Shown: piece after piece, positions 1,065 through 18,004 of the stretch
Layout of the letters: every line of letters begins with the position of its first letter
How positions within the stretch are numbered: position 1 is the stretch's first letter
The notes under the pieces: generated by a model
The model's input: only the letters and a program-made list of their open reading frames with translations
Told to the model about the DNA's origin: nothing
The model's database searches: none
Position numbers and translations under genes: made by a program
From: Candidatus Aerophobota bacterium
GTDB lineage: Bacteria > Aerophobota > Aerophobia > Aerophobales > JAGGXI01
Direction of reading: 5' to 3'
Assembly (NCBI GenBank): GCA_021163155.1
Contig: JAGGXI010000008.1
Location: 1 to 18,004, forward strand
DNA: 18,004 nt

Positions 1065-1553
1065 ATGGCAAAGATTTTGATTATCTATTATTCAAGGTCA
1101 GGAAATACTGAGAAAATGGCTCATCTTATAGAGGAAGGAGTAAAAGAGGAAAAAGTAGAGGTTAAAAGTAAAAGGGTAGAAGATATAAATTTGAATGAGC
1201 TTTTGGAAGCAGATGGAATAATTCTTGGCTCTCCCACTTATTTTGGTTCTATGGCTTCTCCTCTTAAAAGATTGGTTGATGAGAGCGTTAAGTATTACGG
1301 TAAACTTAAAGGTAAAGTGGGAGGAGCATTCACTTCCCGTCAGCGGGCCGGAGGAGGAGGTGAAACTACTCTGCAGAGTATTATAAATGCATTTTTAATT
1401 CATGGAATGATTATTCAGGGAAATGTTGAAGGTGACTATTACGGTCCCGTAGCAACGGGAGCGCCAGATAAAATTGTGAGTGAGGAGTGCAAAAATTTAG
1501 GGAAAAGAGTTGCTATAATGGTTAAGCGTCTTTTCCCCGAAACGAGAAGATGA
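1065..1553 (+). CDS. WrbA/flavodoxin-like FMN protein
   Basis: A 162-residue soluble protein of the flavodoxin-like fold, probably an NAD(P)H:quinone oxidoreductase of the WrbA type or an electron-carrying flavodoxin. The N-terminus KILIIYYSRSGNTEKMA (residues 3-19) is the FMN phosphate loop. ADGIILGSPTYFGSMAS (about 49-65) is the second FMN loop, with the aromatic Tyr-Phe pair that stacks on the flavin. GAFTSRQRAGGGGETTL (about 87-103) is the WrbA-like third loop. The length is shorter than typical WrbA (about 200) and near that of short WrbA-like proteins. The ribosome site is AGAGAGGG at 1051-1058. It lies just before an AOR-family gene, so it might exchange electrons with that enzyme, but the structured spacer between them argues against simple co-transcription. 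Confidence 0.85.
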   Translation: MAKILIIYYSRSGNTEKMAHLIEEGVKEEKVEVKSKRVEDINLNELLEADGIILGSPTYFGSMASPLKRLVDESVKYYGKLKGKVGGAFTSRQRAGGGGETTLQSIINAFLIHGMIIQGNVEGDYYGPVATGAPDKIVSEECKNLGKRVAIMVKRLFPETRR

Positions 1554-1705
1554 GCAGAAGTAATCCAAAGCGGATATACAGCGATGGAGGGGAAAAGTCC
1601 CGAGATTCTCTTTAATAATGCACGGATTCTGGGTAGGGTGAGTTCACTCCCCCAAAATGGGATGCTGAAGCTTCTCCCACACTCAGATGAAGTTTCAGAG
1701 ACAAT
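1554..1705 (+). other. Structured spacer, possibly an IS200/IS605-type right-end (omega-RNA-like) remnant
   Basis: The spacer between the flavodoxin and AOR genes is more GC-rich and more structured than its surroundings. GTGAGTTCAC at 1638-1647 is a self-complementary hairpin flanked by G- and C-runs. TGGGA (1658-1662) pairs with TCCCA (1675-1679) around the palindrome GAAGCTTC (1667-1674). The order C-run, AAAATGGGATGCTGAAGCTT, CTCCCACAC and GAAGTTTCAG recalls the right ends of IS200/IS605 elements, where the TnpB guide RNA lies. No tnpA or tnpB is present. A cis-regulatory leader for the AOR gene is the alternative; I could not match it to the molybdenum-cofactor riboswitch. Confidence 0.3.
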
Positions 1706-1727
1706 AAAATAAGAAAGGAGTTAATCG

Positions 1728-3917
1728 ATGAATAATAAAACTAAAACAATTGAACAAATGAGAGAAGCACATAAGGTATTATCCACCTTTGATTTTGAGC
1801 CGGGGAAAATAGAGAAAGGTTATACTGATAGGCGTTTATATATTAATCTTTCGGAAAATAAGATAGAAGGTAAGTCTATTGCTCCCGAGGTAAAGGAAGT
1901 TTTTACCGGAGGCCGGGGCTATGGATTGTGGTATTTATGGCAGGCGGTATCTTCTGATACCCAATGGAATGATCCAGAAAATGAGATAATTATGTGCACA
2001 GGCCCTCTTTGTGGGATTACTCAATATGCTGGATGTGGTAAAAGCCATGTGGTTAGCATATCTCCTGAAACTAATAGTGTTAATGATAATAACTCTGGTG
2101 GTTATTTTGCTCCTTTTTTAAAGTTTTCTGGCTGGGACCTTTTAGAGGTTCAAGGAAAGGCTAAAAGGGATGTAATAATATTTATTGACGGTAATAAAGG
2201 AAAAGTAACTATTGAAGAAAGTCCCTGTGAGGCTATCGATACCTATATTCTTGTTGATGAGCTAACTGAAATGTACGCTGATGATGAAAAGGATAAAAGA
2301 AATATTAGTGTAATCTCTTCAGGAACAGGGGCCCAGAACACCCGATTAGGTATACTTAATATTAGCTGGTATGATATGCATCGTAAAAAAGTTAGAATTA
2401 AGCAGGCAGCAAGAGGCGGAACGGGCACTGTCTTCAGAGATAAAAAAATAAAAGCTATAGTAATAAAATACAAGGGAGTGAGAACTGATTCTAATAAAGT
2501 GGCTAATATGGACCTTATTAAAAAAGCGGGTCAAAGAATAACTAAAGAGATTTTAACTTTAGACCACTCTCAAAATAGAATGAGAGAGATAGGCACTGTT
2601 CATTTAATAGATGCTATGCAAGACCATGATTGTTTACCTGTTTGTAATTATAAATACGGTTCTCATCAGGATGCTTATAAAATTGAGTCTGAAGTTTGGC
2701 AGAAGAGAATAACTCAGAATGAACCGGGTGACTCTTGTTGGATGGGATGTAGTATGCGCTGTTCACATGCAGTAGATAACCTTGAGTTAAAGACAGGGCC
2801 TTTAAAGGGGCAAAGAATCCTGGTAGATGGACCAGAATATGAAACTACGGCTGGATTTGGGGCTAACTGTGGTACTTTTGACCTTGATTTTTCCTTAGAG
2901 GCCAATTTTTATTGTGATAATTATGGTTTAGACACTATTGCTGTGAGTACCGGTATTGCTTTTCTAATGGAATGTTATGAGAATGGTATAATCAATAAGG
3001 AGATTACCGGAGGTTTAGAGCTCAATTTTGGCAATACCGATGCGGCCTTAGAGCTAATTCACCAAATGTCCCGAGGTGAAGGATTTGGCAAGATTGCTGG
3101 CCAAGGAATTCGTATTTGTAAACAATTATTTGTAGAGAAGTATAATGCTAATTCAAAATTTTTACAAGATATTGGTATGGAATGTAAGGGAATGGAGTTT
3201 TCTGAATATGTAACCAAAGAGACTTTAGCTCAACAGGGAGGGTTTGGTTTAGCAAATAAAGGGCCTCAGCATGATGAGGCTTGGCTTATTTATATGGATC
3301 AGGTAAACAATCAAATCCCTACCTTTGATGATAAAGCAGAAGCACTTCACTTTTTCCCGATATTCCGCACATGGTTTTCTCTCGTAGGACTTTGCAAACT
3401 ACCCTGGAATGATATTGAACCAGCAAATAATCAACAGGCTTATCATGGCATAGAAGCAGCTAAAGTGCCTGAGCATTTAGAGAATTATTGTTGGCTTTTT
3501 GAAGGAATTACCGGAAAACCTGTTACTATAGATGACTTAATTTTTCAATCAGAAGTTGTGTATAATTTCCAGCGCTTGTTTAATTTAAAGATGGGCTATG
3601 GCACCAGGGAATATGATGCAATTCCATACCGCGCTATGGGTCCTGTAACAAAGGAAGAGTATGAGTCACGAAAGGACCGTTACGATAAGCAGCTTAAAGA
3701 GGTAGTTGGCTTTAACCCTGATAATAAATCAACAGAAGAGAAGATTAAGGCACTGCGAGCTTATAGAGAATCTCAATACAGAAAGCTCTGCGATGCTGTA
3801 TATAAACGTCGAGGATGGGATTCTAATGGTGTGCCCACACTTGAAACTATTAAAAGGTTAAAAATAGACTTCCCTGATGTAATTGAGTTAGTAGAAAGGT
3901 ATCATCATAAAAAGTAA
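1728..3917 (+). CDS. Aldehyde:ferredoxin oxidoreductase (AOR) family tungsten/molybdenum enzyme
   Basis: A 729-residue cytoplasmic enzyme of the AOR family, which uses a bis-pyranopterin tungsten or molybdenum centre and one 4Fe-4S cluster to interconvert aldehydes and carboxylic acids, or in relatives to reduce ring or acyl substrates, with ferredoxin. The N-terminal FTGGRGYG (59-66) is the pterin-binding domain signature and RGGTGTVFRDKKIKAIVI is its end. The cluster ligands are C337, C341 and C345 (CWMGCSMRC) and C556 in GLCKLPW. GPEYETTAGFGANCG and CDNYGLDTIAVS match the conserved core. The protein is about 100 residues longer than classical AOR (about 605-620); extra sequence lies at the N-terminus and in a charged helical stretch before the usual C-terminal RRGWDSNGVPT. 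Ribosome site AAAGGAG, then ATG 1728. The substrate cannot be read from sequence; a link to the aminotransferase product is an inference. Confidence 0.9.
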   Translation: MNNKTKTIEQMREAHKVLSTFDFEPGKIEKGYTDRRLYINLSENKIEGKSIAPEVKEVFTGGRGYGLWYLWQAVSSDTQWNDPENEIIMCTGPLCGITQYAGCGKSHVVSISPETNSVNDNNSGGYFAPFLKFSGWDLLEVQGKAKRDVIIFIDGNKGKVTIEESPCEAIDTYILVDELTEMYADDEKDKRNISVISSGTGAQNTRLGILNISWYDMHRKKVRIKQAARGGTGTVFRDKKIKAIVIKYKGVRTDSNKVANMDLIKKAGQRITKEILTLDHSQNRMREIGTVHLIDAMQDHDCLPVCNYKYGSHQDAYKIESEVWQKRITQNEPGDSCWMGCSMRCSHAVDNLELKTGPLKGQRILVDGPEYETTAGFGANCGTFDLDFSLEANFYCDNYGLDTIAVSTGIAFLMECYENGIINKEITGGLELNFGNTDAALELIHQMSRGEGFGKIAGQGIRICKQLFVEKYNANSKFLQDIGMECKGMEFSEYVTKETLAQQGGFGLANKGPQHDEAWLIYMDQVNNQIPTFDDKAEALHFFPIFRTWFSLVGLCKLPWNDIEPANNQQAYHGIEAAKVPEHLENYCWLFEGITGKPVTIDDLIFQSEVVYNFQRLFNLKMGYGTREYDAIPYRAMGPVTKEEYESRKDRYDKQLKEVVGFNPDNKSTEEKIKALRAYRESQYRKLCDAVYKRRGWDSNGVPTLETIKRLKIDFPDVIELVERYHHKK

Positions 3918-5209: not shown

Positions 5210-6253
5210 ATGTTTTATTATAGTATAAATATAAATGATGAACAAGAAAAAGAGAAGATTGTAAGATTTCTCCATAAATTAAATTTAAGATACGAGGATG
5301 ATATAGAATTTACTCTAACAGTTGTAGATAATAACGAGATAATAGGAACAGGCTCGATTAGTGGAAAGATTTTAAAGTGTATCGGCGTAAAACCAGAAAG
5401 ACAAGGAGAAGGAATATCAGCAAAGATTATTACTTATCTTATGCAAGAGCAATTTAAAAGAGGGCGGAACCATATTTTCCTTTTTACCTCCCCTGATAAG
5501 GCAGATAGATTTATAAATTTGGGTTTTCAAGAGGTAGCCTCTGCAGAGCCTAATTTTACTTTGTTAGAGATGGGAATAGGAGGAATAAAAAAATATCTTG
5601 AAAATTTAAAAGAACATAAGCTCAGGACGAATGATAAGAAAACAATATCATCCATAGTAGTGAATGCCAATCCTTTTACTTTAGGGCATCAGTATTTAGT
5701 TAAGAAAGCTTCCCTGGAAAGTGATGCCGTTTATGTTTTTGTGGTGAAAGAAGATAAATCTCTCTTTCCTTTTAAGGTGCGGTTTAATTTAGTAAAGAAA
5801 GGATGCCAAGAATTTGAAAATGTAGAGGTAATAAACGGGGGCGATTATATTATTTCAAACAGTACTTTTCCTACTTATTTTACTCGAGATAGTGAAGAGA
5901 AAATTGTATTTATGCAAGCTACTCTTGATGTAAACATATTCGCTAAATATATTGTTCCTACTTTGAATATTAAGAGAAGATACATAGGAGAAGAGCCTTA
6001 TTGCGGGACCACTAACCTTTATAATAAAGCAATGAAACAGATATTACCTTCTGTAGGAGTAAAAGTGGTAGAGGTACCAAGACTTAAAATAAAAGGAGTT
6101 GCCGTAAGTGCCTCTACAGTAAGAAATTTAATTAAGAAATCTGATTTTATAAAGCTTCAAGAATTGATTCCCGAATCTACATATCGTTTCTTAGTTTCTA
6201 AGGAAGCATATCCTATTATTGAAAAAATCAAATCTTCCAGGAGCCGTCATTAA
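5210..6253 (+). CDS. citC: [Citrate (pro-3S)-lyase] ligase
   Basis: A 347-residue enzyme that uses ATP and acetate to acetylate the thiol of the citrate-lyase acyl-carrier prosthetic group, switching the lyase on. The N-terminal third is an acetyltransferase-like (GNAT) domain, with VKPERQGEGISAKII near residues 63-77. The C-terminal part is a nucleotidyltransferase domain with the HIGH-type motif NANPFTLGH (152-160) and the SASTVR motif (300-305) that binds ATP phosphates. The length matches the family. The ribosome site is weak (GATGAAGAT about ten bases before ATG 5210). It lies 25 bases after the aminotransferase gene and 28 before citD, first in the lyase set as in many bacterial cit operons. 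Confidence 0.93.
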   Translation: MFYYSININDEQEKEKIVRFLHKLNLRYEDDIEFTLTVVDNNEIIGTGSISGKILKCIGVKPERQGEGISAKIITYLMQEQFKRGRNHIFLFTSPDKADRFINLGFQEVASAEPNFTLLEMGIGGIKKYLENLKEHKLRTNDKKTISSIVVNANPFTLGHQYLVKKASLESDAVYVFVVKEDKSLFPFKVRFNLVKKGCQEFENVEVINGGDYIISNSTFPTYFTRDSEEKIVFMQATLDVNIFAKYIVPTLNIKRRYIGEEPYCGTTNLYNKAMKQILPSVGVKVVEVPRLKIKGVAVSASTVRNLIKKSDFIKLQELIPESTYRFLVSKEAYPIIEKIKSSRSRH

Positions 6254-6281
6254 GCAGGATTAAAAGAGGGGGTAGATAAAA

Positions 6282-6575
6282 TTGAAAGATACAGCTAAGA
6301 TTGGTCAATCTGGAACGTTGGAATCCAGTGATATTTTAGTAATGGTTCAACTTTCTCCTGATCAGAATGGCATAAGAATTGAACTGGAAAGTCCATCAAA
6401 AAAATGTTTTGGTAGCCAAATACTGAAGACAATTAAACAGACGCTGCATAATCTTGGCATTATGAATGCATATGTTAAGGCTCAAGACAGAGGGGCTCTG
6501 GATTGTACCATTAATGCTCGGGTGGAAACTGCTGTTAAAAGAGCATTGAAGTTTAAAGAGAAAGGGGATGTATAG
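6282..6575 (+). CDS. citD: Citrate lyase gamma subunit (acyl carrier protein)
   Basis: A 97-residue acyl-carrier subunit that bears the phosphoribosyl-dephospho-CoA arm. The motif GQSGTLESSD (8-17) matches the modification site of CitD, and by alignment to the E. coli protein as I recall it, Ser15 is the attachment serine. DRGALDCTINARVETAV near the C-terminus is also typical. It starts with TTG at 6282 behind AGAGGGGG (6265-6272). It ends in TAG, one of only two UAG stops among the intact genes; reading through would add just 15 residues before TAA at 6621-6623. This matters because the window also encodes PylSc. The gene sits one base before the preferred citE start. Confidence 0.92.
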   Translation: MKDTAKIGQSGTLESSDILVMVQLSPDQNGIRIELESPSKKCFGSQILKTIKQTLHNLGIMNAYVKAQDRGALDCTINARVETAVKRALKFKEKGDV

Positions 6576-6576
6576 A

Positions 6577-7464
6577 ATGGAAAAGAGATTAAGACGTACT
6601 GCATTGTACATTCCGGGCAATAATCCGACAATGATTCAAAACGCAGGGATTTTTGGTGCAGATTCTATAGTGTTAGATTTAGAAGATGCGGTGTCTATTG
6701 AAGAAAAAGATGCAGCGCGCATTTTATTACGAAATGCTTTAAGAACCATTGATTACAAGAATACTGAAGTAGTAGTAAGAATTAATCCCCTTTCTACACC
6801 TTATGGTCATGAAGACCTGAAGGTAATTGCAAGAGAGAAGCCTGATGCCATTCGGTTGCCAAAATGTGAATCTGTAGAAGATGTTCAAGAAGCTGATAAG
6901 CTGTTAACAAAAATTGAAGAAAACATAGAATTAAAAGAAGGGACAATAAAATTAATGCCTTTAATTGAGTCAGCTAAGGGGATTTTTAATGTCTTTGAAA
7001 TTGCGAGAGCAAGTCAGCGGGTCGTAGCTCTTAATTTTGGAGCAGAAGATTATACAGCAGATATTGGCGCAGAAAGAACAAAAGAAGGGAAAGAATTATT
7101 AGACATAAGAGCAAGAATACTTTTAGCAGCACGAGTAGCAGGAATAGATGCTCTCGATAGTGTGTTTGGAGATATTAATGATGAGAAAGGTTTAATAGAA
7201 GAGACAAAATTTATAAAACAGCTGGGCTTTAATGGAAAATCAATAATTCATCCCTGTCAAATAAAACCGGTTCATCAAATATTTACTCCTTCAGAAGATG
7301 AGATCAAATATGCTCAAAGGGTTATCGCAGCTATTGAGGAGGCAAAAGCTAAAAAGTCAGGGGTTATTGCTTTGGACGGGAGAATGATTGATGCTCCAGT
7401 AGCTTCCAGAGCGCGAAGGATTTTAGCATTTGCCAAAGCTGCAGGCTTAATCAGTGTAATCTAA
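6577..7464 (+). CDS. citE: Citrate lyase beta subunit (citryl-ACP lyase type)
   Basis: A 295-residue TIM-barrel lyase of the CitE family. In the complex it cleaves the acyl-ACP thioester (citryl-ACP) to acetyl-ACP and oxaloacetate. RRTALYIPGNNPTMIQNA opens the barrel; LDLEDAV (33-39) carries the Glu/Asp of the metal site; VVRINP (66-71) supplies the conserved substrate arginine; IESAKGIFN and LNFGAEDYTADIG carry the other metal-binding acids. I chose ATG 6577 over the in-frame ATG at 6568, because AAAGGGG at 6561-6567 touches 6568 but is correctly spaced for 6577, and the start then falls just after the citD stop. A citramalate lyase beta subunit would look almost identical, so the exact substrate is inferred from neighbours only. 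Confidence 0.92.
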   Translation: MEKRLRRTALYIPGNNPTMIQNAGIFGADSIVLDLEDAVSIEEKDAARILLRNALRTIDYKNTEVVVRINPLSTPYGHEDLKVIAREKPDAIRLPKCESVEDVQEADKLLTKIEENIELKEGTIKLMPLIESAKGIFNVFEIARASQRVVALNFGAEDYTADIGAERTKEGKELLDIRARILLAARVAGIDALDSVFGDINDEKGLIEETKFIKQLGFNGKSIIHPCQIKPVHQIFTPSEDEIKYAQRVIAAIEEAKAKKSGVIALDGRMIDAPVASRARRILAFAKAAGLISVI

Positions 7465-7496
7465 ATAAATCTGTGTAATCATCATAGGAGAAAAAG

Positions 7497-9038
7497 ATGG
7501 CTATTAATGCTGTAGGTCGTGAAATACCGGAAGAAATAAAAGGGGTAGGAGAGCTGAATCCGTATCAGGGAGCTTTTAAAACTGTGCCTACCGGGAACAA
7601 AATGTCTCCTAATATATCTATGCAAAAGCGGGGTGAAACGAAAGTACTAAATTCTCTTGAAGAAGCAATTAAGAAAGTGGGAGTGAGAAATGGGATGACT
7701 ATCTCTTTCCATCATCATCTTAGAAACGGAGATTATGTAGTTGCTATGGTGCTTGATACTTTATCTAATTTAGGCATAAAAAATATAACTATTGCTCCCA
7801 CTGCACTTTTCCCTGCCCATAAATCTATAATAAAGCATATCAAAAGTGGCGTAGTTACAGCTATTCAGGGAAGCGTAAATGGACCGATAGGTAGAATAGC
7901 CTCTGAAGGTGTTTTCGATGTTCCAGTTATTCTTCGCTCTCATGGAGGAAGAGCTCGAGCGATTGAATCTGGAGATCTTCCTATTGATGTAGCTTTTATA
8001 GCTGCCCCTACCGCAGACATATATGGGAATATAAACGGGGTTAAGGGTCCATCTGCTTGTGGTTCACTTGGATATATTGTAGCTGATGCTATGTATGCAG
8101 ATAAAGTGGTAGCTATAACTGATAATTTGGTTGATTATCCAGTAGCGCCTATTTCTATTCCTCAGATATATGTAGATTACGTTGTGAAAGTTAATAAAAT
8201 AGGCGATCCAAAGGGAATAGTTTCGGGGACTCTTGAAATAACCAGAGACCCTTTGAGGTTACTAATTGCGGAAAGAGCTGCCAGTGTCATAGAAGCCTCA
8301 GGTTTATTACGTAATGGTTTTTCATTTCAAACCGGTGCCGGAGGAATATCTTTGGCGGTTGCCTATCATATTCGCAAGATAATGAAACAGCACAGCATTG
8401 TGGGTAGTTTTGGTTCTGGAGGAATAACAGCTTATTTTGTTCGAATGTTAGAAGAAAAGTTGTTTAGGGTATTGCTTGATGTTCAGTCTTTTGATATAGA
8501 AGCAGTAAAATCACTAATCAGGAACCCCAATCATCTTGAAATGAGTGCCTCGTTTTATGCAAATCCTCACAATAAGGGATGCGCAGTAAACAATTTGGAT
8601 ATTATAATCTTAGGAGCTACACAGATTGATACCGATTTTAATGTAAATGTAAATACTGAGTCTGATGGGGTTCTTTTACATGGAATTGGTGGACATATGG
8701 ATACAGCAGCAGGGGCTAAACTTACTATAATAGTAACTCCGCTTTTAAGAGGAAGAATACCTATAGTAGTGGATAAGGTAATTACAATAACCACACCGGG
8801 AGAGACAATTGATGTTTTAGTAACTGAGCGAGGAATTGCTGTAAATCCTAATCGAAAGGATCTATTACAGCGATTAAAGAAGACTCGGCTTCCTCTTGTA
8901 AACATTGAAGATCTAAAGAAAGAGGCTGAGAAGATGACAGGCAAACCAGAGGTGCCACAATTCGAGAATAAAATCATAGGTTTAGTTGAATATAGAGATG
9001 GAACTATCATTGATGTGATAAGGCAGGTTAGAAAATAG
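7497..9038 (+). CDS. citF: Citrate lyase alpha subunit (citrate:acetyl-ACP transferase)
   Basis: A 513-residue CoA-transferase-family subunit that swaps acetate for citrate on the acyl-carrier arm. Typical CitF segments occur in order: AVGREIPEEIKG and LNPYQGAF at the start, SFHHHLRNGDYVV, GPSACGSLGYIVADAMYADK, GTLEITRDPLRLLIAERA, FSFQTGAGGISLAVAYH, GSFGSGGITAYFVRMLEEKL, MSASFYANPHNKGCAVN and LHGIGGHMDTAAGAKL. The length is normal. Ribosome site AGGAG at 7486-7490. It ends in TAG (9036-9038), with a backup TAA four codons on (9051-9053). The last bases overlap the probable AUA start of citX. As with citE, a citramalate lyase alpha subunit cannot be excluded by sequence alone. Confidence 0.93.
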   Translation: MAINAVGREIPEEIKGVGELNPYQGAFKTVPTGNKMSPNISMQKRGETKVLNSLEEAIKKVGVRNGMTISFHHHLRNGDYVVAMVLDTLSNLGIKNITIAPTALFPAHKSIIKHIKSGVVTAIQGSVNGPIGRIASEGVFDVPVILRSHGGRARAIESGDLPIDVAFIAAPTADIYGNINGVKGPSACGSLGYIVADAMYADKVVAITDNLVDYPVAPISIPQIYVDYVVKVNKIGDPKGIVSGTLEITRDPLRLLIAERAASVIEASGLLRNGFSFQTGAGGISLAVAYHIRKIMKQHSIVGSFGSGGITAYFVRMLEEKLFRVLLDVQSFDIEAVKSLIRNPNHLEMSASFYANPHNKGCAVNNLDIIILGATQIDTDFNVNVNTESDGVLLHGIGGHMDTAAGAKLTIIVTPLLRGRIPIVVDKVITITTPGETIDVLVTERGIAVNPNRKDLLQRLKKTRLPLVNIEDLKKEAEKMTGKPEVPQFENKIIGLVEYRDGTIIDVIRQVRK

Positions 9039-9547
9039 ATAAAAAACTCTTAAGCGAAATATTACAGGCCAGAGAAAGCCGGGTAGCAACCCAAAAAGAA
9101 ATGATAAGTAAATATAATTTACCTTTAGTATCTATTACTCTTAATATTCCAGGCTCTAATAAAGACAGTTTAAAGATCAGAAAAATTTATAGAGAGTGTA
9201 TAAGGGTGGTAAAGATAAAATTACTAAAACAGAGAGAATCTACAATTGTTTGTGAGAGAGAACGGTTTTCTGCTGAAGGTCCTGAATTTTTTATGGTGGT
9301 CGATGGTATCGCTGCCAAAACACTAAAAAAGATGTTCATCCAAATAGAGAATGAGCATTTAGTTGGTAGATTGTTTGATATTGATGTGATAGATAAAGAC
9401 TTCAGTGTAGTTAGCCGTAAGGATGTGAATATGCCTCCAAGGAAATGTATAATATGTGAAGATGATGCCATAAACTGTATATCTATGCGTAAACATAAAA
9501 GAGATGAAATAATTAAAGCTGTAGATAATCTTATAGATCAATTTTAA
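9035..9547 (+). CDS. citX: Apo-citrate lyase phosphoribosyl-dephospho-CoA transferase, probable AUA start
   Basis: CitX transfers the triphosphoribosyl-dephospho-CoA arm onto the CitD serine. Core motifs are NLPLVSITLNIPG, then VGRLFDIDVID (GRLFDIDV at 111-118 counted from 9035) and PPRKCIICE (Cys138 and Cys141). The first ATG in frame is at 9101, but family sequence clearly continues upstream: LLSEILQARESRVATQKE precedes that methionine and aligns with the CitX N-terminus. Between the in-frame TAG at 9029 and the ATG there is no ATG, GTG or TTG. The best start is ATA at 9035, overlapping the citF stop as ATAG with AAGGCAGG (9020-9027) at ribosome-site distance; a second ATA at 9059 is less likely. 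The product would be 170 residues, near family length. A sequencing error is the alternative. Confidence 0.8.
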   Translation: MDKKLLSEILQARESRVATQKEMISKYNLPLVSITLNIPGSNKDSLKIRKIYRECIRVVKIKLLKQRESTIVCERERFSAEGPEFFMVVDGIAAKTLKKMFIQIENEHLVGRLFDIDVIDKDFSVVSRKDVNMPPRKCIICEDDAINCISMRKHKRDEIIKAVDNLIDQF

Positions 9548-9568
9548 TATTTTAATAAAAGGTAATCT

Positions 9569-10519
9569 ATGCCCCAAAAAATAATCTTACAAAAAAAAGA
9601 GATTGGTTTATTCAATAACAATATCTATTCTTCTTATTCCGGTTTTCATCCCCTTGCAGTTAATATAGGAGAAGCGGCTATAAAAGGTATATTGTTGGAG
9701 TTAAGTTGCACTCCAAAGCCGGGATTGGTTGATAGGTTAAATAATGGAGCCAATCTAGATATGAATTTTACTACCTTTATCTTAAGTTCTTCTGCTATAT
9801 CCTATGGTATGTATCAGTGTGCCCAACTTGGAATAGATTTTTCAGGTAAGGCTGATGCCCTTTTGCCTGAGTTTCGTCGAATTGGGCTTGATATGGAAAG
9901 AAAAATGTTTAAGGCAACAGGAGGCATAAATACACAAAAGGGATTGATATTCCTTGAAGGATTGGTTTGCGTCTCCGCTGGTTCCTTGATAAGAAAGGAA
10001 CAAAAATTAACTCCAGAAAATATTTGTCAAAGAATAAAGGAGATAACAAGAGGAATTGTAGATAGAGAACTTAAAACATTTCTTAATCATCTTACTTATA
10101 GAAATAGAAAACTCACCACTGGCGAGAGGCTGTTTTTAAAATATGGTATTACAGGTGTTCGGGGAGAAGTGGAAGAAGGACTTCCTACTGTAAGAGAGAG
10201 TGGATTACCAGCACTTCAAACTGCACTTAAACAAGGTCTATCACTTAATGATGCATTAGTTCAAGCTTTAATTTCTATAATTGCGGTTTTAGAAGATACC
10301 AATGTAATAGCACGCTCGAGTCCAGAGATTTTGTCCAGGATAGTCCATCCTATGGCTAATAAGGCGGTACAATTGGGAGGAATGTCCACTACTGCAGGAC
10401 GAAAAAAGATTATTGCAATAGACAGATATTTTATTAGAAATAATATTAATCCTGGAGGGTCAGCTGATTTACTTGCGGTGACTGCTACTTTATATTATCT
10501 TTCTTTGCTGTCATCTTGA
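9569..10519 (+). CDS. citG: Triphosphoribosyl-dephospho-CoA synthase
   Basis: A 316-residue enzyme that joins ATP and dephospho-CoA to make the precursor of the citrate-lyase prosthetic group, which CitX then attaches to CitD. Strong family motifs: TPKPGLVDR (48-56) followed by LNNGANLDM, ATGGINTQKG (116-125), GITGVRGEVEEGLPTV (about residues 193-208), LEDTNVIAR, and NPGGSADLLAVT near the C-terminus. The length is slightly above single-domain CitG, with about 25 extra N-terminal residues. Here citG and citX are separate genes, unlike species with a fused CitXG. The ribosome site is AAAAGGT at 9557-9563. It is the last gene of the lyase set, just upstream of a small mobile element. Confidence 0.93.
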   Translation: MPQKIILQKKEIGLFNNNIYSSYSGFHPLAVNIGEAAIKGILLELSCTPKPGLVDRLNNGANLDMNFTTFILSSSAISYGMYQCAQLGIDFSGKADALLPEFRRIGLDMERKMFKATGGINTQKGLIFLEGLVCVSAGSLIRKEQKLTPENICQRIKEITRGIVDRELKTFLNHLTYRNRKLTTGERLFLKYGITGVRGEVEEGLPTVRESGLPALQTALKQGLSLNDALVQALISIIAVLEDTNVIARSSPEILSRIVHPMANKAVQLGGMSTTAGRKKIIAIDRYFIRNNINPGGSADLLAVTATLYYLSLLSS

Positions 10520-10528
10520 AAAAAATTG

Positions 10529-10538
10529 TAAATAGTGA
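10529..10538 (+). repeat. Target-site duplication, left copy
   Basis: TAAATAGTGA occurs here and again at 10876-10885, bracketing the element between them. The identity over ten bases in direct orientation is what insertion of a transposable element leaves behind. Confidence 0.6.
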
Positions 10539-10875
10539 GATGGTTCAATCTTCTCTGAAAGCTTAGTTTTTATTCTCATAATTATTTTACACTTTTATCA
10601 GTGCCCGTGCTTTCTTTCGGTGTCTTGGAACGCCGCTCTTTTGGTTTTACTCTTATCTGGATACTTTGACGGGCACCTCGTTTTTAAATTTTTTTAGTGA
10701 TAGCGGTGAGGTGCTCTTGGCGACTGCGAGATAATGAACTTTGTTTAAGGGTTAGAGCTTATAGACCCGCCCTTATAAGCTGCTTATCCAAGACAACCTC
10801 AATGCACGGTTAGTTTGAAGCGCTGAATAATTAAAAGCTCTTTTAAGGAACTTTTAGAGAAAATTGAACCATGTC
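10539..10875. mobile_element. MITE-like non-autonomous element with terminal inverted repeats
   Basis: ATGGTTCAATCTTCTCT (10540-10556) and AGAGAAAATTGAACCAT (10856-10872) are inverted repeats matching at 16 of 17 positions. They are bracketed by the 10-bp direct repeat TAAATAGTGA. The 337-bp interior encodes no plausible transposase. It holds an 8-bp inverted repeat GTGCCCGT/ACGGGCAC (10601-10608, 10669-10676) and a perfect hairpin AGCTTATA/TATAAGCT (10757-10764, 10775-10782). It is also more GC-rich than its flanks. These are the traits of a miniature element or an internally deleted insertion sequence mobilised in trans; a duplication of about 10 bp would fit IS4-like elements, but the family is not established. 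This is all that the 390-base gap between citG and the HD gene holds, apart from the HD ribosome site. Confidence 0.65.
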
Positions 10876-10885
10876 TAAATAGTGA
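10876..10885 (+). repeat. Target-site duplication, right copy
   Basis: Second copy of TAAATAGTGA, directly right of the miniature element. It lies about 24 bases before the start of the HD-domain gene, so the insertion sits within its upstream region. Confidence 0.6.
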
Positions 10886-10908
10886 ATAGTTAAAAAGGAG
10901 GAAGATAA

Positions 10909-11442
10909 ATGATAAAAGAAGAATTGCGGGAGCTTATTCCTGAATTTAGTTTAATTGAGGATTTAAAATTAAGAGAGAAGACTTTGAAGGTTTGGGAAAT
11001 TGCCCTTAAAGCTGGGGGTTGGGAGGTAAAAGACCTTAAGATAATGCCTTTTACTTTGTTAATTGAACCTTGTCCTTGTAGTATGGTTGAGCATATACGG
11101 GGAGTAACGAGAGTCTCTATTGAAGCAAGAAAAGCCCTTAAAAGCATTTACAAAGATAAGCTAAAAATAAATAGAGATTATCTAATCTCAGGAGCATTAC
11201 TTCACGATATAGGAAAATTGGTAGAATATAAAAAAGAAAATGGAAAATTTATGCAGAGTAAATGTGGGACTTTGTTACGTCATCCAATCTCTGGAGTAGG
11301 TCTCTGCTATAGTCAGGGTATACCTGAGGAAATAATGCATATTATCGCTTCTCACTCCTGGGAGGGAGACCGTTCCAAACGAACCCCAGAGGCCGTTATT
11401 GTCCATCATGCTGATTTTATTAATTTTGAACAATTTAAATAA
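10909..11442 (+). CDS. HD-domain metal-dependent hydrolase
   Basis: A 177-residue single-domain HD protein, predicted to be a metal-dependent phosphohydrolase. Metal ligands are visible as H62 (MVEHIRGVT), the H99-D100 doublet (LLHDIGKL), H125 (LLRHPISG), H149 (IASHSWEG) and D169 in VHHADF, the arrangement of five- or six-ligand HD domains. It has no GGDEF, kinase or nucleotide-binding partner domain, no signal peptide and no membrane segment. It has a strong ribosome site (AAAAAGGAGG) before ATG 10909 and lies 12 bases upstream of the large hydro-lyase subunit, so it is probably co-translated with it. The substrate is unknown; a small phosphorylated or CoA-like metabolite of the neighbouring pathway is only a guess. 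Confidence 0.8.
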   Translation: MIKEELRELIPEFSLIEDLKLREKTLKVWEIALKAGGWEVKDLKIMPFTLLIEPCPCSMVEHIRGVTRVSIEARKALKSIYKDKLKINRDYLISGALLHDIGKLVEYKKENGKFMQSKCGTLLRHPISGVGLCYSQGIPEEIMHIIASHSWEGDRSKRTPEAVIVHHADFINFEQFK

Positions 11443-11454
11443 AGGGAGGAAAAG

Positions 11455-12714
11455 ATGGGAAAAACCTTTGCGGAGAAGATTTTAGCTCTTAAATCAGGGA
11501 AAGAGAGCATATCTATAGGAGAGATTGTAACTGTTTCTCCTGATGCGGTAATGTCTCACGATAATGCTGCAGCTATATCTAAGAAATTTAAGCAAATTGG
11601 AGTTAATAAAGTAATACATCCTGAGAGAATAGTGATTCCCCTGGACCATTGTGTTCCTGCGGCAACAGAAAAGTATGCCCTTAACCATAAAGTCATAAGA
11701 GAATTTGTTCAAGAACAGGGAATTAAAAATTTTTACGATATCAACACAGGAGTCTGTCATCAAGTGCTTCCAGAAAAGGGGCATACTCTTCCTGGGACTC
11801 TCGTCTTAGGATCCGATTCCCATACTACTACCTATGGAGCATTTGGGGCTTTTGCTGCTGGTATTGGGAGAAGTGAGGTAGCTTCAATTTGGGCTACAGG
11901 CAAGATATGGCTTAAAGTTCCGGAGACAATCAAAATAAATATTGAAGGAGAAATTCCTAAAGGAGTATATCCTAAGGATATCATTCTCTATATTATTGGT
12001 GATTTAGGCGCTGATGGAGCTTTGTATAAAGCAGTTGAATTTAGTGGGAAAGTGGTCAGGGATATGAGTGTTGGTGGTAGAATGACTTTGTGTAATATGG
12101 CAGCTGAAATGGGAGCAAAGATTGGCTATGTGGAGCCGGATGAGAAGTCCATTCAATGGCTTGCTTCAAGAACTGAAAAGGAATACAAAATAGTAAAGTC
12201 AGATGCTGATGCAGAGTTTGAAAGAATTATTGATTATGATATAAGTGGTTTAGAGCCTCAAATAGCTTGCCCTCACACTGTGGATAATGTGAAGCCTGTT
12301 TCTGATGTTATGGGAACAAAAATTAACCAGGCTTTAATTGGAACCTGCACTAATGGAAGAATAGAGGATTTAAAAATTGCCAGTGATATTCTTCAAGGCA
12401 AGAAGATTTCCAGGAATGTAAGACTTCTTGTCTTTCCTGCCTCAATGGAGGTTTTTGCTGAGGCGATGGAGAAGGGAATTTTTCAGGAATTGGTTAAAAG
12501 CGGTGCTGTAATAATGAATCCAGGATGCGGTCCCTGTCTGGGTGCTCATGAGGGAGTTTTAGCGCCAGGAGAGGTTTGTTTAAGCACTGCCAATAGAAAC
12601 TTTAAGGGAAGGATGGGTTGTAAAGAAGCAAAAGTTTATCTTGCCAGTCCGGCCACTGTTGCTGCTTCTTCTCTTTATGGTGAGATTACTGATGTAAGGA
12701 GGTGTTTAAAGTGA
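11455..12714 (+). CDS. Aconitase/3-isopropylmalate dehydratase-type hydro-lyase, large subunit
   Basis: A 419-residue large subunit of the LeuC/homoaconitase group, which isomerises or dehydrates 2- or 3-hydroxy tri- and dicarboxylic acids with a labile 4Fe-4S cluster. The cluster cysteines are C298 (IGTCTNGR), C358 and C361 ([13 protein letters not shown]). [19 protein letters not shown] (118-136) and [13 protein letters not shown] (376-388) are the substrate-cradle motifs. The size of about 420 residues is that of the archaeal-type two-subunit enzymes rather than monomeric aconitase. Ribosome site GGGAGG. The stop TGA overlaps the GTG start of the small subunit by four bases. Possible substrates include citrate/isocitrate, citramalate/mesaconate, isopropylmalate, homocitrate and dimethylmalate. 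No leucine-biosynthesis neighbour such as leuA is present, which weighs against LeuC itself. Confidence 0.88.
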
Positions 12715-13205
12715 TTATTAAAGGGAAAGTATGGAAATATGGGGATAATGTGAATACTGATGTTATCTTTCCTGGTAAATATACCTATACTATAACAGAA
12801 CCTGAAGAGATGGCTAAACATGCTCTGGAGGACCTTGACTCTAATTTTACCAAAGAAGTAAAAAAAGGAGATGTTATTGTTGCTGGGAGGAACTTTGGCT
12901 GTGGGAGTTCTCGGGAACAGGCAGCAACCTGCCTTAAGTATGCAGGGGTAGGAGCTATTGTAGCAAAATCATTTGCCAGGATTTTCTTTAGAAACTCCAT
13001 TAATCAGGGGCTTCTTGTAATTCAATGTAAGGAGGCAGTAGAGAATATATCTTCAGATGAGATAATTACTATTGATTTTGAAAAAGGTAAATTATCCTGT
13101 AAAAAAGGAATTTTTAATTTTCCACCTTTGTCAGAATCTGTTTTGGGGATTCTTAACGATGGGGGGCTCATTCCTCATACAAGGAGAATTTTAGGAATAA
13201 AATAA
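12711..13205 (+). CDS. Aconitase/3-isopropylmalate dehydratase-type hydro-lyase, small subunit
   Basis: A 164-residue swivel-domain subunit that partners the preceding protein. [14 protein letters not shown] (11-24) opens the domain, [10 protein letters not shown] (62-71) is the conserved substrate-binding stretch, and NQGLLVI follows. I chose GTG 12711 because AAGGAGG (12697-12702) is correctly spaced for it, whereas the earlier in-frame GTG at 12702 overlaps the ribosome site; 12711 also gives the common 4-base GTGA overlap with the large subunit. The specificity loop after the first helix reads [11 protein letters not shown] (23-33). Archaeal homoaconitase has YLRT and isopropylmalate isomerase YLVY at this place (from memory), so YTYT fits neither and the substrate stays open. 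Confidence 0.87.
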
Positions 13206-13304
13206 GGTAATGCCAAAAATTTTATGAAGGAATCCCAAGTTAACATTATCGATAAAGAAAAAAAAGAATTATCCAGGGGAGAGGAAATTATCCTAAATAA
13301 AAAG

Positions 13305-13333
13305 TGGTAGCCGCAACTTTTAAGTTGCGCAAA
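13305..13333. repeat. Palindromic intergenic repeat, copy 1
   Basis: A 29-bp unit beginning TGGTAGCCGCAAC and ending AAGTTGCGCAAA. Its core CGCAACTT-TT-AAGTTGCG can fold into an 8-bp stem with a two-base loop. It is matched by copy 2 at 28 of 29 positions. It lies in the gap between the small hydro-lyase subunit and the dehydrogenase gene. Confidence 0.75.
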
Positions 13334-13343
13334 ACAATGCAGA

Positions 13344-13372
13344 TGGTAGCTGCAACTTTTAAGTTGCGCAAA
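13344..13372. repeat. Palindromic intergenic repeat, copy 2
   Basis: Second copy of the 29-bp unit, starting TGGTAGCTGCAAC and differing from copy 1 by one C-to-T change. The two copies are ten bases apart. This looks like a REP-like dispersed repeat of the genome. Confidence 0.75.
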
Positions 13373-13407
13373 GAAATATTATTAGATAAGAACGCAGGCT
13401 CTGAGCT

Positions 13408-13419
13408 TTGCGGCTACCA
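13408..13419. repeat. Inverted partial copy of the palindromic repeat
   Basis: TTGCGGCTACCA is the exact reverse complement of the first 12 bases of copy 1 (TGGTAGCCGCAA, 13305-13316). The cluster 13305-13419 is thus bounded by inverted termini, so the whole 115-bp block may be one mobile repeat unit. Confidence 0.6.
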
Positions 13420-13474
13420 ATTACAGAAAATAGATTATTTTGACATTATATAAAATAAAGAAAGGAGACTAAAG

Positions 13475-14596
13475 ATGGCAAAATATAAGATAGCCTGGTT
13501 ATCTGGTGATGGAATTGGAAAAGATGTGATGGAGGCAGCAAGAATTGTGTTAGATTCGCTAAAACTTGATGCTGATTATATTCAAGGTGATGTAGGTTGG
13601 GAATTCTGGAAAAAAGAAGGAAACCCTTTACCTAATAGGACAATAAAGATCCTTCGGGAAACAGATTGCTGCCTTTTTGGAGCAATCACCTCTAAACCCA
13701 AAGAAGAGGCAGAAAAAGAGCTTAATCCTGAGCTTAAAGGAAAAGGTTATGTCTATTTTAGTCCTATTGTCCGAATACGTCAGGAGTTTAAATTACATAC
13801 TAATCTAAGACCGTGTAAATCCTATAAAGGAAATCCTCTTAATTATCGAGACGATATAGATTTAGTTGTCTTTAGAGAAAATACAGAAGGATTATATAGT
13901 GGAGTAGAGTTTCATCCTCTGCCAAAAGATTTAATGGACTCTCTTTTAAAAAATCATCCAAAGATGAAAAGATTTAAGGAGACTCCTTTGGAGGATATCG
14001 CTTTATCCTGCCGGATTTTTACAAGGAAAGCTTGCCAGACAATTATTCGTCAAGCATTTGAATATGCAAAGAAATTTGATAGAGATTCAGTTACTCTTAT
14101 TGAGAAACCAAATGTGATAAGAGAGACAAGCGGGTTAATGGTGAGGGAAGCTCGGAAGATTGCTAAAGAGTATCCAGGAATTGAGCTCTGGGAAGCAAAT
14201 GTAGATGCAATGTGTATGTGGCTTGTTAAAAATCCCCAAAAGTATAGTGTCCTCGTTGCTTCAAATCTATTTGGAGATATAATCTCTGACCTTTGTGCTC
14301 AACTTGTAGGTGGATTAGGATTTGCCTCCAGTGCCAATATCGGAGATGATTATGCTCTCTTTGAACCTACTCATGGTTCTGCTCCCAAGTATGCAGGACA
14401 ATATAAGGTAAATCCTACAGCAATGCTCCTGGCTGTTAAATTAATGCTTGATTACTTAGGAGAGGATGAGTCAGCAGGAAGATTAGGGAGCTCAATTGCT
14501 AAAGTTATTGAAGAGGAAAAAGTGAGGACCTATGATTTAGGGGGAACAGCTTCTACTTTAGATGTAGCTAAAGAGATAGTTAGAAAGCTATCGTGA
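13475..14596 (+). CDS. Isocitrate/isopropylmalate-family beta-decarboxylating dehydrogenase
   Basis: A 373-residue NAD(P)-dependent, metal-dependent beta-decarboxylating dehydrogenase. Family landmarks: LSGDGIGKDVM (9-19), R102, R112 and R134 as the substrate arginines, ENTEGLYSGVE with catalytic Tyr141, catalytic Lys211, metal acids D244, D268 and D272 (NLFGDIISD), and the cofactor loop EPTHGSAPKYAG (297-308). Lys305-Tyr306 resembles the NADP-binding pair of bacterial isocitrate dehydrogenase. The substrate loop SPIVRIRQ (96-103) keeps the Ser of isocitrate enzymes but has Ile98 where E. coli isocitrate dehydrogenase has Asn115, plus an extra Arg100. The length is closer to LeuB or homoisocitrate dehydrogenase than to E. 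coli Icd. Ribosome site AAAGGAG. Placed after a LeuCD-type pair, it probably oxidises the hydroxy acid they form; identity as isocitrate dehydrogenase is not assured. Confidence 0.85.
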   Translation: MAKYKIAWLSGDGIGKDVMEAARIVLDSLKLDADYIQGDVGWEFWKKEGNPLPNRTIKILRETDCCLFGAITSKPKEEAEKELNPELKGKGYVYFSPIVRIRQEFKLHTNLRPCKSYKGNPLNYRDDIDLVVFRENTEGLYSGVEFHPLPKDLMDSLLKNHPKMKRFKETPLEDIALSCRIFTRKACQTIIRQAFEYAKKFDRDSVTLIEKPNVIRETSGLMVREARKIAKEYPGIELWEANVDAMCMWLVKNPQKYSVLVASNLFGDIISDLCAQLVGGLGFASSANIGDDYALFEPTHGSAPKYAGQYKVNPTAMLLAVKLMLDYLGEDESAGRLGSSIAKVIEEEKVRTYDLGGTASTLDVAKEIVRKLS

Positions 14597-14611
14597 TTGA
14601 GAGGTAAAAAA

Positions 14612-15985
14612 ATGGAAACAATAAGTCAAAGATGGGCTAAGTTTGCTCTTGGATTACATTACGATGATATTCCTCCTGAGGCTTTAGAGGAGGCTAAGCG
14701 ATTCCTTTTAGATAGTGTGGGTTGTGCCCTTTCTGCCGTTGACAGCAAGGATATGCAAGCTGTCTTCCACTATATTCAGGATTTAGGAGGAAAAGAGCAG
14801 GCTACTATTATAGGTTGGGGAAGAAAGGCAAATATGCCTCAAACCACTTTAATGAATTCCTTGCTTATACGAGCCAGGGATTATAATGATATCTATTGGG
14901 AGCAGGACCCTTCTCATCCTTCGGATATTATCCCGGCTGCACTTAGCACAGGTGAGTTTAAGGAAAGAAGTGGAAAAGAGATTCTTGTAGGGATAGTGCT
15001 TGCCTATGAATTAGAGATGAGGTTATGTCAGGCAGCTATTCCAGGGGTTCGGGAGATAGGTTGGCATCATGCTACTTTAACCCAGTTTGTAAGTCCTGTA
15101 GTAGCCGGGCGAATGTTAGGATTAAATAAAGAAAAGATAGTAGCTGCAGTAGGTATTAGCGGCTCCTCTCACTTTACCTTAGGAGGGGTAGTAGCTGGAC
15201 ATCTTACCAATATGAAAAATACAGCTGACCCTTTAGCTGTAAAGGCCGGAGTAGAAGCCGCTTTACTGGCGGATAAGGGCTATACTGGTCCAGTGGAGGT
15301 ATTTGAAGGGAAAGAAGGGTTATTTGAAGTGCTGGATAAAGTAAAGTGGAATAAGGATATTCTTTTAAAAGGATTGGGAGAGAAATTTCTAATTACCGAT
15401 TGTGGTTACAAAGCTTTTCCTACCGAAGCTTTAACACATCAACCTATTACTGCTACTTTAGAGGTTATGCAAGAAAGCCATCTTGACCCCCACGAGGTGA
15501 AAGAAGTTTTGGTAGAAACTACCACCAGAGGAGCAGATATTTTATCTGACCCAAGTAAGTATAAACCTACTACCAAGGAAACAGCCGACCACTCTCTCCC
15601 TTATTGTATAGCTGTAGCCATAGCTAAAGGTAATGTTCTTCCTTCTGATTTTGAAGAGGAAGCTCTTCATGACAGCTTTGTCTTATCATTACTGAATAAG
15701 ATTAAGGTAGTGGCTAATTCCCAAATAGACTCTCTTTTTCCAAAAGTAAAAAGAGCTATTGTCTCTATTAAAACCTCTAAAGGAGTATATAAGAAACAGG
15801 AGGACCTTGCTAAAGGTCAACCAAAAAGACCTTTAAGTAATGAAGAGCTTATATCCAAATTTAAGGCCAATGCCAAAAGAAAAATATCTTCTCAAAGGAT
15901 GGAGGATATTATAAAAGCTACTAAAGAACTTGAAAATGTTGAGAATATTGAAGAGTATATCAGACTTCTTGCAAGCGATAAATAA
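14612..15985 (+). CDS. MmgE/PrpD-family protein (2-methylcitrate dehydratase / cis-aconitate decarboxylase relative)
   Basis: A 457-residue all-helical-plus-lid MmgE/PrpD protein. The family includes 2-methylcitrate dehydratase, cis-aconitate decarboxylase and iminodisuccinate epimerase. Active-site landmarks: RARDYNDIYW with D90, HPSDIIPAA (102-110), GWHHATLTQF with H152, MKNTADPLA (201-209) with K202, and YKAFPTEALTH (266-276). These line up with the Asp, His, His and Lys residues reported for cis-aconitate decarboxylase. The histidine after its KxFPx appears to be Glu272 here, which would argue against itaconate formation; both statements are from memory. I chose ATG 14612 with AGAGGT (14600-14605) rather than the upstream in-frame TTG at 14597. 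It follows the dehydrogenase by 15 bases and so shares its operon. A methylcitrate or aconitate-type substrate fits the neighbours. Confidence 0.87.
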   Translation: METISQRWAKFALGLHYDDIPPEALEEAKRFLLDSVGCALSAVDSKDMQAVFHYIQDLGGKEQATIIGWGRKANMPQTTLMNSLLIRARDYNDIYWEQDPSHPSDIIPAALSTGEFKERSGKEILVGIVLAYELEMRLCQAAIPGVREIGWHHATLTQFVSPVVAGRMLGLNKEKIVAAVGISGSSHFTLGGVVAGHLTNMKNTADPLAVKAGVEAALLADKGYTGPVEVFEGKEGLFEVLDKVKWNKDILLKGLGEKFLITDCGYKAFPTEALTHQPITATLEVMQESHLDPHEVKEVLVETTTRGADILSDPSKYKPTTKETADHSLPYCIAVAIAKGNVLPSDFEEEALHDSFVLSLLNKIKVVANSQIDSLFPKVKRAIVSIKTSKGVYKKQEDLAKGQPKRPLSNEELISKFKANAKRKISSQRMEDIIKATKELENVENIEEYIRLLASDK

Positions 15986-16066: not shown

Positions 16067-16098
16067 TTAAATACCGAATTGAAAATATATCATAGAGG

Positions 16099-16288
16099 TA
16101 ATTAAGGGAGAGACTGGGATATCCAGAACCGAAGGGGCAAGCTTTAAGTAGTAAGCGAAACTCTCAGGTAAAAGGACCTTAATTGAGCAACTCTCTGGAG
16201 AAATTTTCCTAAAATTTTAGGGGAGGAACCGAAGGGGCATTATTACCTTTACAGGTAAGGTAAAATCTCTCAGGTAAAAGGACAGAGG
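16099..16288 (+). promoter_or_regulatory. Tandem glycine riboswitch (two aptamers)
   Basis: Two glycine aptamers follow one another. Aptamer 1 (about 16100-16184) is closed by AATTAAGG/CCTTAATT and contains the hallmark ACCGAAGGGGCAA and ACTCTCAGGTAAAAGGAC. Aptamer 2 (about 16191-16288) repeats ACCGAAGGGGCA and TCTCTCAGGTAAAAGGACAG and is closed by CTCTG (16193-16197) with CAGAG (16283-16287). The 3' strand of its closing stem touches the terminator, so ligand binding can influence termination. Glycine riboswitches typically control glycine cleavage, glycine uptake or related aminotransferase genes. The next frame here is a truncated aminotransferase, so what the switch now controls is unclear. 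Confidence 0.93.
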
Positions 16289-16375: not shown

Positions 16376-16483
16376 ATGCAAATAACAAAAAGAATAGAAA
16401 GATTAGGAACCGAAACCGCTTTTGAGGTCTTGCCAGAGGTAAACAAACTCAAAGAAAATGTTATTAACTCAAAAGGCTCTTAA
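16376..16483 (+). pseudogene. Truncated class I aminotransferase N-terminus behind the riboswitch
   Basis: A 35-codon frame with a good ribosome site (AGAGAGGTG, 16362-16370) reads MQITKRIERLGTETAFEVLP and then EVNKLKENVIN before SKGS and TAA. This matches the start of PLP aminotransferases (KRIxxLGTETAFEVL...VNxLK...VIN), up to the point where the family continues into its GEPDFDTP-like motif. Nothing further of the enzyme is visible, so a deletion joined the first 31 or so codons to unrelated DNA. It was probably the gene regulated by the glycine riboswitch. The complete aminotransferase at 4009-5184 is a different, only distantly similar gene. Confidence 0.65.
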
Positions 16484-16689: not shown

Positions 16690-16840
16690 TACGTTTTGCA
16701 GTTTTTAAAAACCCGACTATTCTTATATTTCCGTTTTTTTAACTTTGCTATTGACGAAAGTCAGGATTATATTTCCGAGAAAAAAAGAATAAGAAGCTAA
16801 ATAACTTTATCTACAGTGAGCGAAAAGGAGTAAGTAACAG
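16690..16840 (+). promoter_or_regulatory. Upstream region of pylSc with a candidate promoter
   Basis: TTGCTA (16745-16750) and TATATT (16768-16773), 17 bases apart, are a moderate -35/-10 match. AAAAGGAG at 16823-16830 is the ribosome site for the TTG start at 16841. I looked for a tRNA-Pyl with a CUA anticodon here and found none. Confidence 0.35.
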
Positions 16841-17674
16841 TTGACTATAACCTGGACAATAGCTCAAAAACAGCGTTTAAGAGAATTAAATGTTACCCCA
16901 GATTTAGAAGAAAAGGTATTCTCTGATATTCAAGAGCGGGATAAAACCTTCCGTAGTATAGAACAGCTACTCGTAAAACAGAGTAAACAACATTTAATGG
17001 AGATGAGGAATATTCATCGCCGTCCAGCACTCTGCAAATTGGAGAGGGTTCTATCAGATGTACTCATCAAAAACGAGTTTGTCCAGGTAGTTACCCCAAT
17101 TATATTAGCTAAGGGCTTATTAGCAAAGATGTCAATTACAAAAGATCATCCTCTATTTAAGCAAGTATTTTGGTTGGATGAAGATAGATGTCTAAGGCCA
17201 ATGTTAGCACCAAATCTTTATTATCTTTTGAGAGAGCTTGTTCGCTTGTGGGAGAAACCCATACGAATCTTTGAAATAGGTCCCTGTTTTCGCAAAGATT
17301 CGGGAGGCGGTTGTCATTTAAATGAATTCACTATGTTGAACCTCGTAGAACTTGGTTTATCTGAAGAGAAGGAAAGTAAAAGATTGGGGGAGCTTGCTTC
17401 TATAATAATGAATGCTGTAGGTATAAAAAATTATCAATTGATCTCTAATCAGTGTGAAGTATATGGAGAGACGATAGATGTAGTTTCCAAAATAGAGGTG
17501 GGTTCAGGAGTTATAGGTCCTCACATCCTGGATACTCAATGGGGAATAGTTGACCCGTGGGCAGGAATAGGGTTTGGCCTGGAGAGACTTATTATGGTTA
17601 AAGAAGGATACCAGAATATTCAAAGGGTGGGGCGTGCTCTTGTATATCTTAATGGCGTACGACTAAATATTTAA
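16841..17674 (+). CDS. pylSc: Pyrrolysyl-tRNA synthetase catalytic domain (PylSc)
   Basis: A 277-residue class II synthetase that charges the amber-decoding tRNA-Pyl with pyrrolysine. It is the separate bacterial catalytic protein, lacking the N-terminal tRNA-binding domain that is a distinct gene (pylSn) in bacteria such as Desulfitobacterium. FVQVVTPIILAKGLLAKMSI holds motif 1, RIFEIGPCFRKDSGGGCHLN (142-161) motif 2 with R151, and GFGLERL (244-250) motif 3. The pyrrolysine pocket is present: RPMLAPNLYYLL (119-130), N167 in FTMLNLVELG, Y208 in VYGETIDV, and W240. Val169 stands where the methanogen enzyme has Cys348 and, from memory, D. hafniense has Thr. It starts with TTG behind AAAAGGAG and ends 62 bases before a corrinoid-protein gene, placing it in a methylamine-type locus. 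Confidence 0.95.
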   Translation: MTITWTIAQKQRLRELNVTPDLEEKVFSDIQERDKTFRSIEQLLVKQSKQHLMEMRNIHRRPALCKLERVLSDVLIKNEFVQVVTPIILAKGLLAKMSITKDHPLFKQVFWLDEDRCLRPMLAPNLYYLLRELVRLWEKPIRIFEIGPCFRKDSGGGCHLNEFTMLNLVELGLSEEKESKRLGELASIIMNAVGIKNYQLISNQCEVYGETIDVVSKIEVGSGVIGPHILDTQWGIVDPWAGIGFGLERLIMVKEGYQNIQRVGRALVYLNGVRLNI

Positions 17675-17736
17675 TGTTGAATGATTTTAAAATTAAAAGA
17701 AAAGTATAAGTAGTAAGTTTTAAGGAGGATTAAGTT

Positions 17737-18004
17737 ATGGGGAAAGAGGAGCTTTTAAAGGAAGCTGCAGATGCGATTGTTAACTATAATAAGAATAAAG
17801 CTGAGGAGATAGCCAAACGTACTCTTGCTGAGGAGATAGATCCTTTGGAGATGATTGAGAAGGGGTTCCGAAAAGGCATAATTAAAATAGGTGATCTCTT
17901 TGGAAGAGGGGAGATATTTCTACCGGAGCTAGTGCAAGCAGCTGAGGCTATGAAATCATCAACCGATATTCTTATCTCTGCACTACCCCAGGGTACGCAA
18001 GAGA
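17737..18004 (+). CDS. Methyltransferase corrinoid protein (MttC/MtbC-like), partial at right edge
   Basis: The first 89 residues of a cobalamin-binding methyl-carrier protein, cut by the window end. Strong ribosome site AAGGAGG (17722-17728), then ATG 17737. The visible part is the four-helix cap domain: EEIDPLEMIEKGFRKGI, then IGDLFGRGEIFLPELVQAAE and AMKSSTDIL, the typical cap of MttC, MtbC, MtmC and MtgC. The B12 domain with its DxHxxG histidine should follow outside the window. Such proteins accept a methyl group from a cognate MttB/MtbB/MtmB methyltransferase, several of which carry a pyrrolysine. Directly after pylSc this points to tri-, di- or monomethylamine, or to glycine betaine, use; the substrate depends on the methyltransferase, which is not visible. 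Confidence 0.92.
   Translation, partial: MGKEELLKEAADAIVNYNKNKAEEIAKRTLAEEIDPLEMIEKGFRKGIIKIGDLFGRGEIFLPELVQAAEAMKSSTDILISALPQGTQE

Follow-up and report, generated by a model that had tools for sequence, protein, structure and literature searches.

A pylSc gene at a contig end in an Aerophobota genome bin: the probable left end of a pyrrolysine cassette cut by assembly

The window, i.e., the whole 18,004 bp stretch of DNA analysed here, is the entire contig C38 of the Candidatus Aerophobota genome bin G000 (1.83 Mb, 119 contigs, scored 93% complete). At its right end an intact gene for the catalytic part of a pyrrolysyl-tRNA synthetase, pylSc, is followed by the 5′ part of a corrinoid protein gene. 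Most probably a bacterial pyl cassette of the standard type, itself probably functional, begins here at its left end and was cut by an assembly break. Lysine is converted by PylB, PylC, and PylD into pyrrolysine, the 22nd amino acid. This residue is inserted where tRNA-Pyl (CUA) decodes an in-frame UAG in MtmB, MtbB, or MttB, and there it positions the methylamine for transfer of its methyl group to a corrinoid protein. The catalytic half of the synthetase and the N-terminal half of the corrinoid protein are the sole parts of such a system present in the sequence of this genome; from the gene order found in other genomes we infer that a working pyrrolysine system may accompany them.

The reading frame at position 16841–17674 on the forward strand encodes an intact PylSc of 277 amino acids, i.e., the catalytic subunit of the pyrrolysyl-tRNA synthetase in its split, bacterial form. 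It begins with a TTG codon that has an AAGGAG Shine-Dalgarno-like motif (16825–16830, forward strand, read directly from the sequence) 10 nt ahead of it. An in-frame stop is found two codons upstream of the start, and the product therefore carries no fused N-terminal tRNA-binding domain. The PylS_Cterm model TIGR02367 is matched over its full length (model positions 1–242 of 242) with 351.6 bits, where the curated cut-off is 178 (178.15) bits, and the structure of the Desulfitobacterium hafniense enzyme (PDB 3dsq) is matched with an E-value of 6.7e-100 at 55% identity, agreements that chance cannot explain. The D. hafniense PylSc (3dsq/2zni) thus shares its length, the full-length match and the core of the binding pocket with the window protein. 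The two systems differ in gene order, as pylSc is followed by the corrinoid gene in the window and by pylB in D. hafniense, and in composition, as D. hafniense belongs to the class termed sN, with PylSn as well as PylSc, whereas no PylSn was found in the bin of the window. Three classes of pyrrolysyl-tRNA synthetase are known, and the split sN class exceeds the other two in size (PMC11363022).

The pyrrolysine/ATP binding pocket is complete in its core residues, as the initial annotation had proposed. All core residues are kept in the window protein, i.e., L126, Y127, R151, N167, Y208, W240, and G242, and in an alignment of 83 PylSc sequences the positions of Methanosarcina mazei L305, Y306, R330, N346, Y384, W417, and G419 are invariant; the matching of positions to the M. 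mazei numbering relies on the equivalences between the M. alvus and M. mazei enzymes. The same annotation had singled out Val169, at the position of M. mazei C348, as a natural variant at a position that shapes substrate specificity. This suggestion had to be given up, since valine is the commonest residue there (V in 60, T in 21, and A in 2 of the 83 sequences) and also the state of the well-known M. alvus enzyme. D. hafniense PylSc has threonine at this position.

A corrinoid protein gene of the methylamine type, MttC/MtbC-like, starts 62 bp downstream of pylSc and occupies position 17737–18004 on the forward strand, so that the description of a PylSc adjoining a methyltransferase corrinoid protein, and its placement, can be retained. 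The gene stops at codon 89 because the contig ends at position 18004. Its product matches the B12-binding helical domain PF02607 (E-value 1.4e-21) and, partially, TIGR02370 (model positions 2–80 of 197), and the cobalamin-binding half with the DxHxxG motif falls past the point where the contig stops. The window closes with a near-repeat of 407 bp (17598–18004, forward strand), which spans the 3′ end of pylSc and the 5′ part of the corrinoid gene. Its copy, of 97.5% identity, forms the left end of contig C39 in the same bin, and the two contigs stop at the identical base inside the corrinoid gene. The presence of a near-identical copy of this stretch elsewhere is the probable cause of the break inside the corrinoid gene. 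The 3′ half of the window corrinoid gene was found on no contig of the bin in a corrinoid-family profile search that recovered six other corrinoid genes. As this 3′ half must exist, the sequence directly downstream of pylSc is missing from the bin.

What the missing piece may hold is indicated by the gene order in other genomes. Of 80 loci that were compared, there are five in which pylSc is followed at no more than 120 bp by a corrinoid gene and the sequence can be read further, i.e., L031 and L054 from Spirochaetes, L034 and L039 from Aminicenantes, and L032 from a further MAG. In all five pylB comes next after the corrinoid gene, and the two that are long enough run on to pylC, pylD, and pylSn, and also to pylT (14690–14761 in L054 and 9953–10027 in L032); in L054 an mtbB gene with an in-frame TAG comes after the pyl genes. 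The N-terminal halves of the corrinoid proteins are 54–63% identical to that of the window in L031, L034, L039, and L054, and 46% identical in L032. The window has the same order of pylSc and corrinoid gene, with the same close spacing, as these compact cassettes, which continue past the corrinoid gene whereas the window sequence stops inside it. The initial annotation had left it open whether the locus was split or continued to the right; the rightward continuation is better supported, by the cassettes elsewhere and by the cut corrinoid gene, while the remainder was not found in the bin. The cassette would be of the type pylSc-corrinoid-pylB-pylC-pylD-pylT-pylSn, so that the missing piece would carry PylB, PylC, PylD, tRNA-Pyl (CUA), and PylSn, in addition to one or more methylamine methyltransferases whose genes contain an in-frame TAG. 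Because they lie together in the layout of L054, the loss of one block of about 7–8 kb could explain all the absent parts. This reading is also favoured by the genomes of the closest PylSc relatives, five from Dehalococcoidia, which hold other components in varied combinations (PylSn in four, tRNA-Pyl in two, and amber MtbB in all five). In a compact cassette of this type pyrrolysine would be loaded onto tRNA-Pyl by PylSc and PylSn acting together, the tRNA would read the TAG inside the methyltransferase, where pyrrolysine would activate the methylamine, and the corrinoid protein would take up the methyl group and pass it to C1 metabolism.

An interruption at this place is not confined to the window. 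In the genome G203 the contig with pylSc ends 373 bp past the gene and another contig starts with the corrinoid gene followed by pylB, pylC, pylD, pylT, and pylSn, and in G202, an Aminicenantes sequence labelled as a chromosome, a scaffold gap of 100 N lies inside the corrinoid gene. Such interruptions at the pylSc/corrinoid junction in two other genomes suggest a general assembly artefact of pyl cassettes, and cassettes that begin with pylSc, corrinoid gene, and pylB tend to be split in assembly at the repeated corrinoid gene. The loci with the gap or break at this junction are L048 (11033–11132) and the right end of L050 with L172 (Aminicenantes bin34, Acetocimmeria).

The window itself contains neither a tRNA nor pylSn, pylB, pylC, or pylD, and the searches of the incomplete bin G000 for the remainder of the system returned nothing either. 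No PylSn was found in the bin, which is broken at the place where it is expected, with a profile that finds PylSn in 9 of 14 comparator genomes. A pattern search in IUPAC code for tRNA-Pyl gave no match in the bin. A covariance model (R1) built from 21 tRNA-Pyl sequences, used in its place, scores 77–99 bits in 7 of the 14 comparators and likewise detected no tRNA-Pyl (CUA) in the bin. The best R1 matches there, at 32.6 bits or less, are ordinary tRNAs and were rejected. The best scores in the bin were 30.8 bits for PylB (cut-off 348) and 22.8 bits for PylD (cut-off 150), and no MtbB was found in it, while an amber MtbB is present in 12 of the 14 comparators. None of the six MttB homologues of the bin that span the pyrrolysine site has an in-frame TAG at that position (the residues are I, C, Q, C, A, and S).

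These absences cannot be read as real because the bin is demonstrably broken at the corrinoid gene. To conclude from the lack of PylD and PylSn that pyrrolysine is not used was therefore rejected, as the missing 3′ half of the corrinoid gene proves that there is a gap at this very place. The initial annotation had held that a complete genome devoid of tRNA-Pyl and pylBCD, or of a TAG-containing methyltransferase, would point to a non-functional or repurposed synthetase; these were indeed not found (with PylB and PylD as the biosynthetic proteins searched for), but the genome is incomplete and the synthetase is not discredited by the result.

It could nevertheless be argued that the locus is a relic, i.e., that most of the pyl cassette has been lost, that pylSc and the corrinoid gene are recent leftovers, and that homologues of MttB and MtmB devoid of pyrrolysine serve methylated amines instead. 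The missing PylSn, tRNA-Pyl, PylB, PylD, MtbB, and amber methyltransferase would all agree with this, as would G202, where likewise just pylSc and the 5′ end of the corrinoid gene are present and the rest of the system was not found in searches for PylSn, tRNA-Pyl, and MtbB. The contig C39 lends itself to the same interpretation. In its copy of the junction pylSc is reduced to the final 26 codons, which are joined on their upstream side to a transposase-like fragment. Upstream of this remnant lie a corrinoid gene and an MtmB homologue of full length (L105, position 1247–2614, reverse strand; PF05369, 347 bits). This homologue contains no TAG, has a sense codon at the pyrrolysine position and, on its sequence, is classified with the pyrrolysine-free MtmB homologues. 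The first of these to be assigned a function is MtqB, which was recently shown to demethylate tetramethylammonium and choline (PMC13044021), and by analogy a partial replacement of pyrrolysine enzymes by such homologues is thinkable. On the other hand the pylSc of the window is intact, with a reading frame that has stayed open over 277 codons despite a divergence of about 30% from its nearest relatives and a pocket that shows no drift; the order of pylSc and corrinoid gene is that of complete cassettes; and the bin and G202 are both gapped exactly where the cassette is expected to continue. We therefore regard a relic as unlikely. It is quite unlikely that the PylSc is an orphan which, retained with its corrinoid partner after the loss of tRNA-Pyl, PylSn, and pyrrolysine biosynthesis, has been put to another purpose or is caught midway through the loss of the 22nd amino acid to pyrrolysine-free MtmB and MttB proteins. 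Where a MAG yields pylSc and nothing else of the system, loss of the code should not be concluded.

About ten pyrrolysine-free genes or gene fragments of the MttB superfamily are scattered over the bin (contigs C93, C79, C114, C4, C48, C58, C31, C104, and C11). Several of them are cut at contig ends, with C104 and C48 ending at the same codon, and this family therefore fragments the assembly.

When 84,980 species genomes were scanned, 285 PylS-encoding stretches came to light, which makes PylS uncommon but not singular, a rarity that is best called moderate. The nearest PylSc sequences come from Dehalococcoidia MAGs (L025–L029) and are 69–71% identical, and in a phylogenetic tree the window PylSc is joined to them in a clade with support values of 99/95. 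Chloroflexi-type pylSc and pylSn have been reported previously (PMC5424206). No PylS was found in 16 other genomes searched from the order to which the window belongs, and two scans of IMG/VR with PylSc revealed no viral relative.

With relatives so distributed, the pylSc end of the contig might be thought to stem from another organism, through mis-binning or a chimeric contig. The five nearest sequences being from Dehalococcoidia, the absence of PylS from the 16 genomes of the order, and a third-position GC content (GC3) of 0.39 in the corrinoid part, above the 0.24–0.30 of other window genes, would fit such an origin. However, the pylSc gene itself (GC 0.38, GC3 0.32) is near the contig GC of 0.367 and the GC3 of 0.24–0.30, no near-identical donor was found, the best identity being 71%, and a copy of the junction is carried by a second contig of the same bin. 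A foreign origin of the contig end is consequently highly improbable.

The Dehalococcoidia relatives also raise the question of whether the system could be functional but dispersed, with the remaining pyl genes at another locus that is missing from the bin, since this is the layout of the genomes with the nearest PylSc. Their pylSc has an activase gene upstream and lies apart from pylBCD, whereas the window has no activase gene upstream of pylSc and a corrinoid gene downstream of it, which is the layout of the compact cassettes. A dispersed system is therefore very unlikely here, and a compact cassette cut by assembly is preferred. In the Dehalococcoidia loci (L025–L029) the gene preceding pylSc encodes an AcsV/RamA-like corrinoid reductive activase, and a separate locus on another contig (L170) has the order pylB-pylC-pylD-pylSn-mtbB(TAG)-corrinoid-pylT, so that the pyl layout is split.

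The PylSc of the window is thus ordinary in kind, a further bacterial split pyrrolysyl-tRNA synthetase, encoded where the assembly of its probable cassette breaks off. Its interest lies in its host, as the patchy list of lineages with pyrrolysine machinery gains an order in which none of the 16 other genomes searched has PylS, with a PylSc that branches beside those of Dehalococcoidia.

Upstream of pylSc the window has a different content. Position 5210–15985 is occupied by genes in one direction, first the citrate lyase genes citC, a citD-like gene, citE, citF, and citG, and then genes for subunits of an aconitase/isopropylmalate-type hydratase, an isocitrate/homoisocitrate-type dehydrogenase, and an MmgE/PrpD protein. 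They are followed by a glycine riboswitch aptamer at position 16095–16189 (RF00504, 68.7 bits), next to which a second, sub-threshold aptamer and a terminator-like hairpin can apparently be discerned by eye up to about position 16297. Behind the riboswitch, from position 16377 onward, lies the start of an aminotransferase-like reading frame, which stops interrupt after 38 codons.
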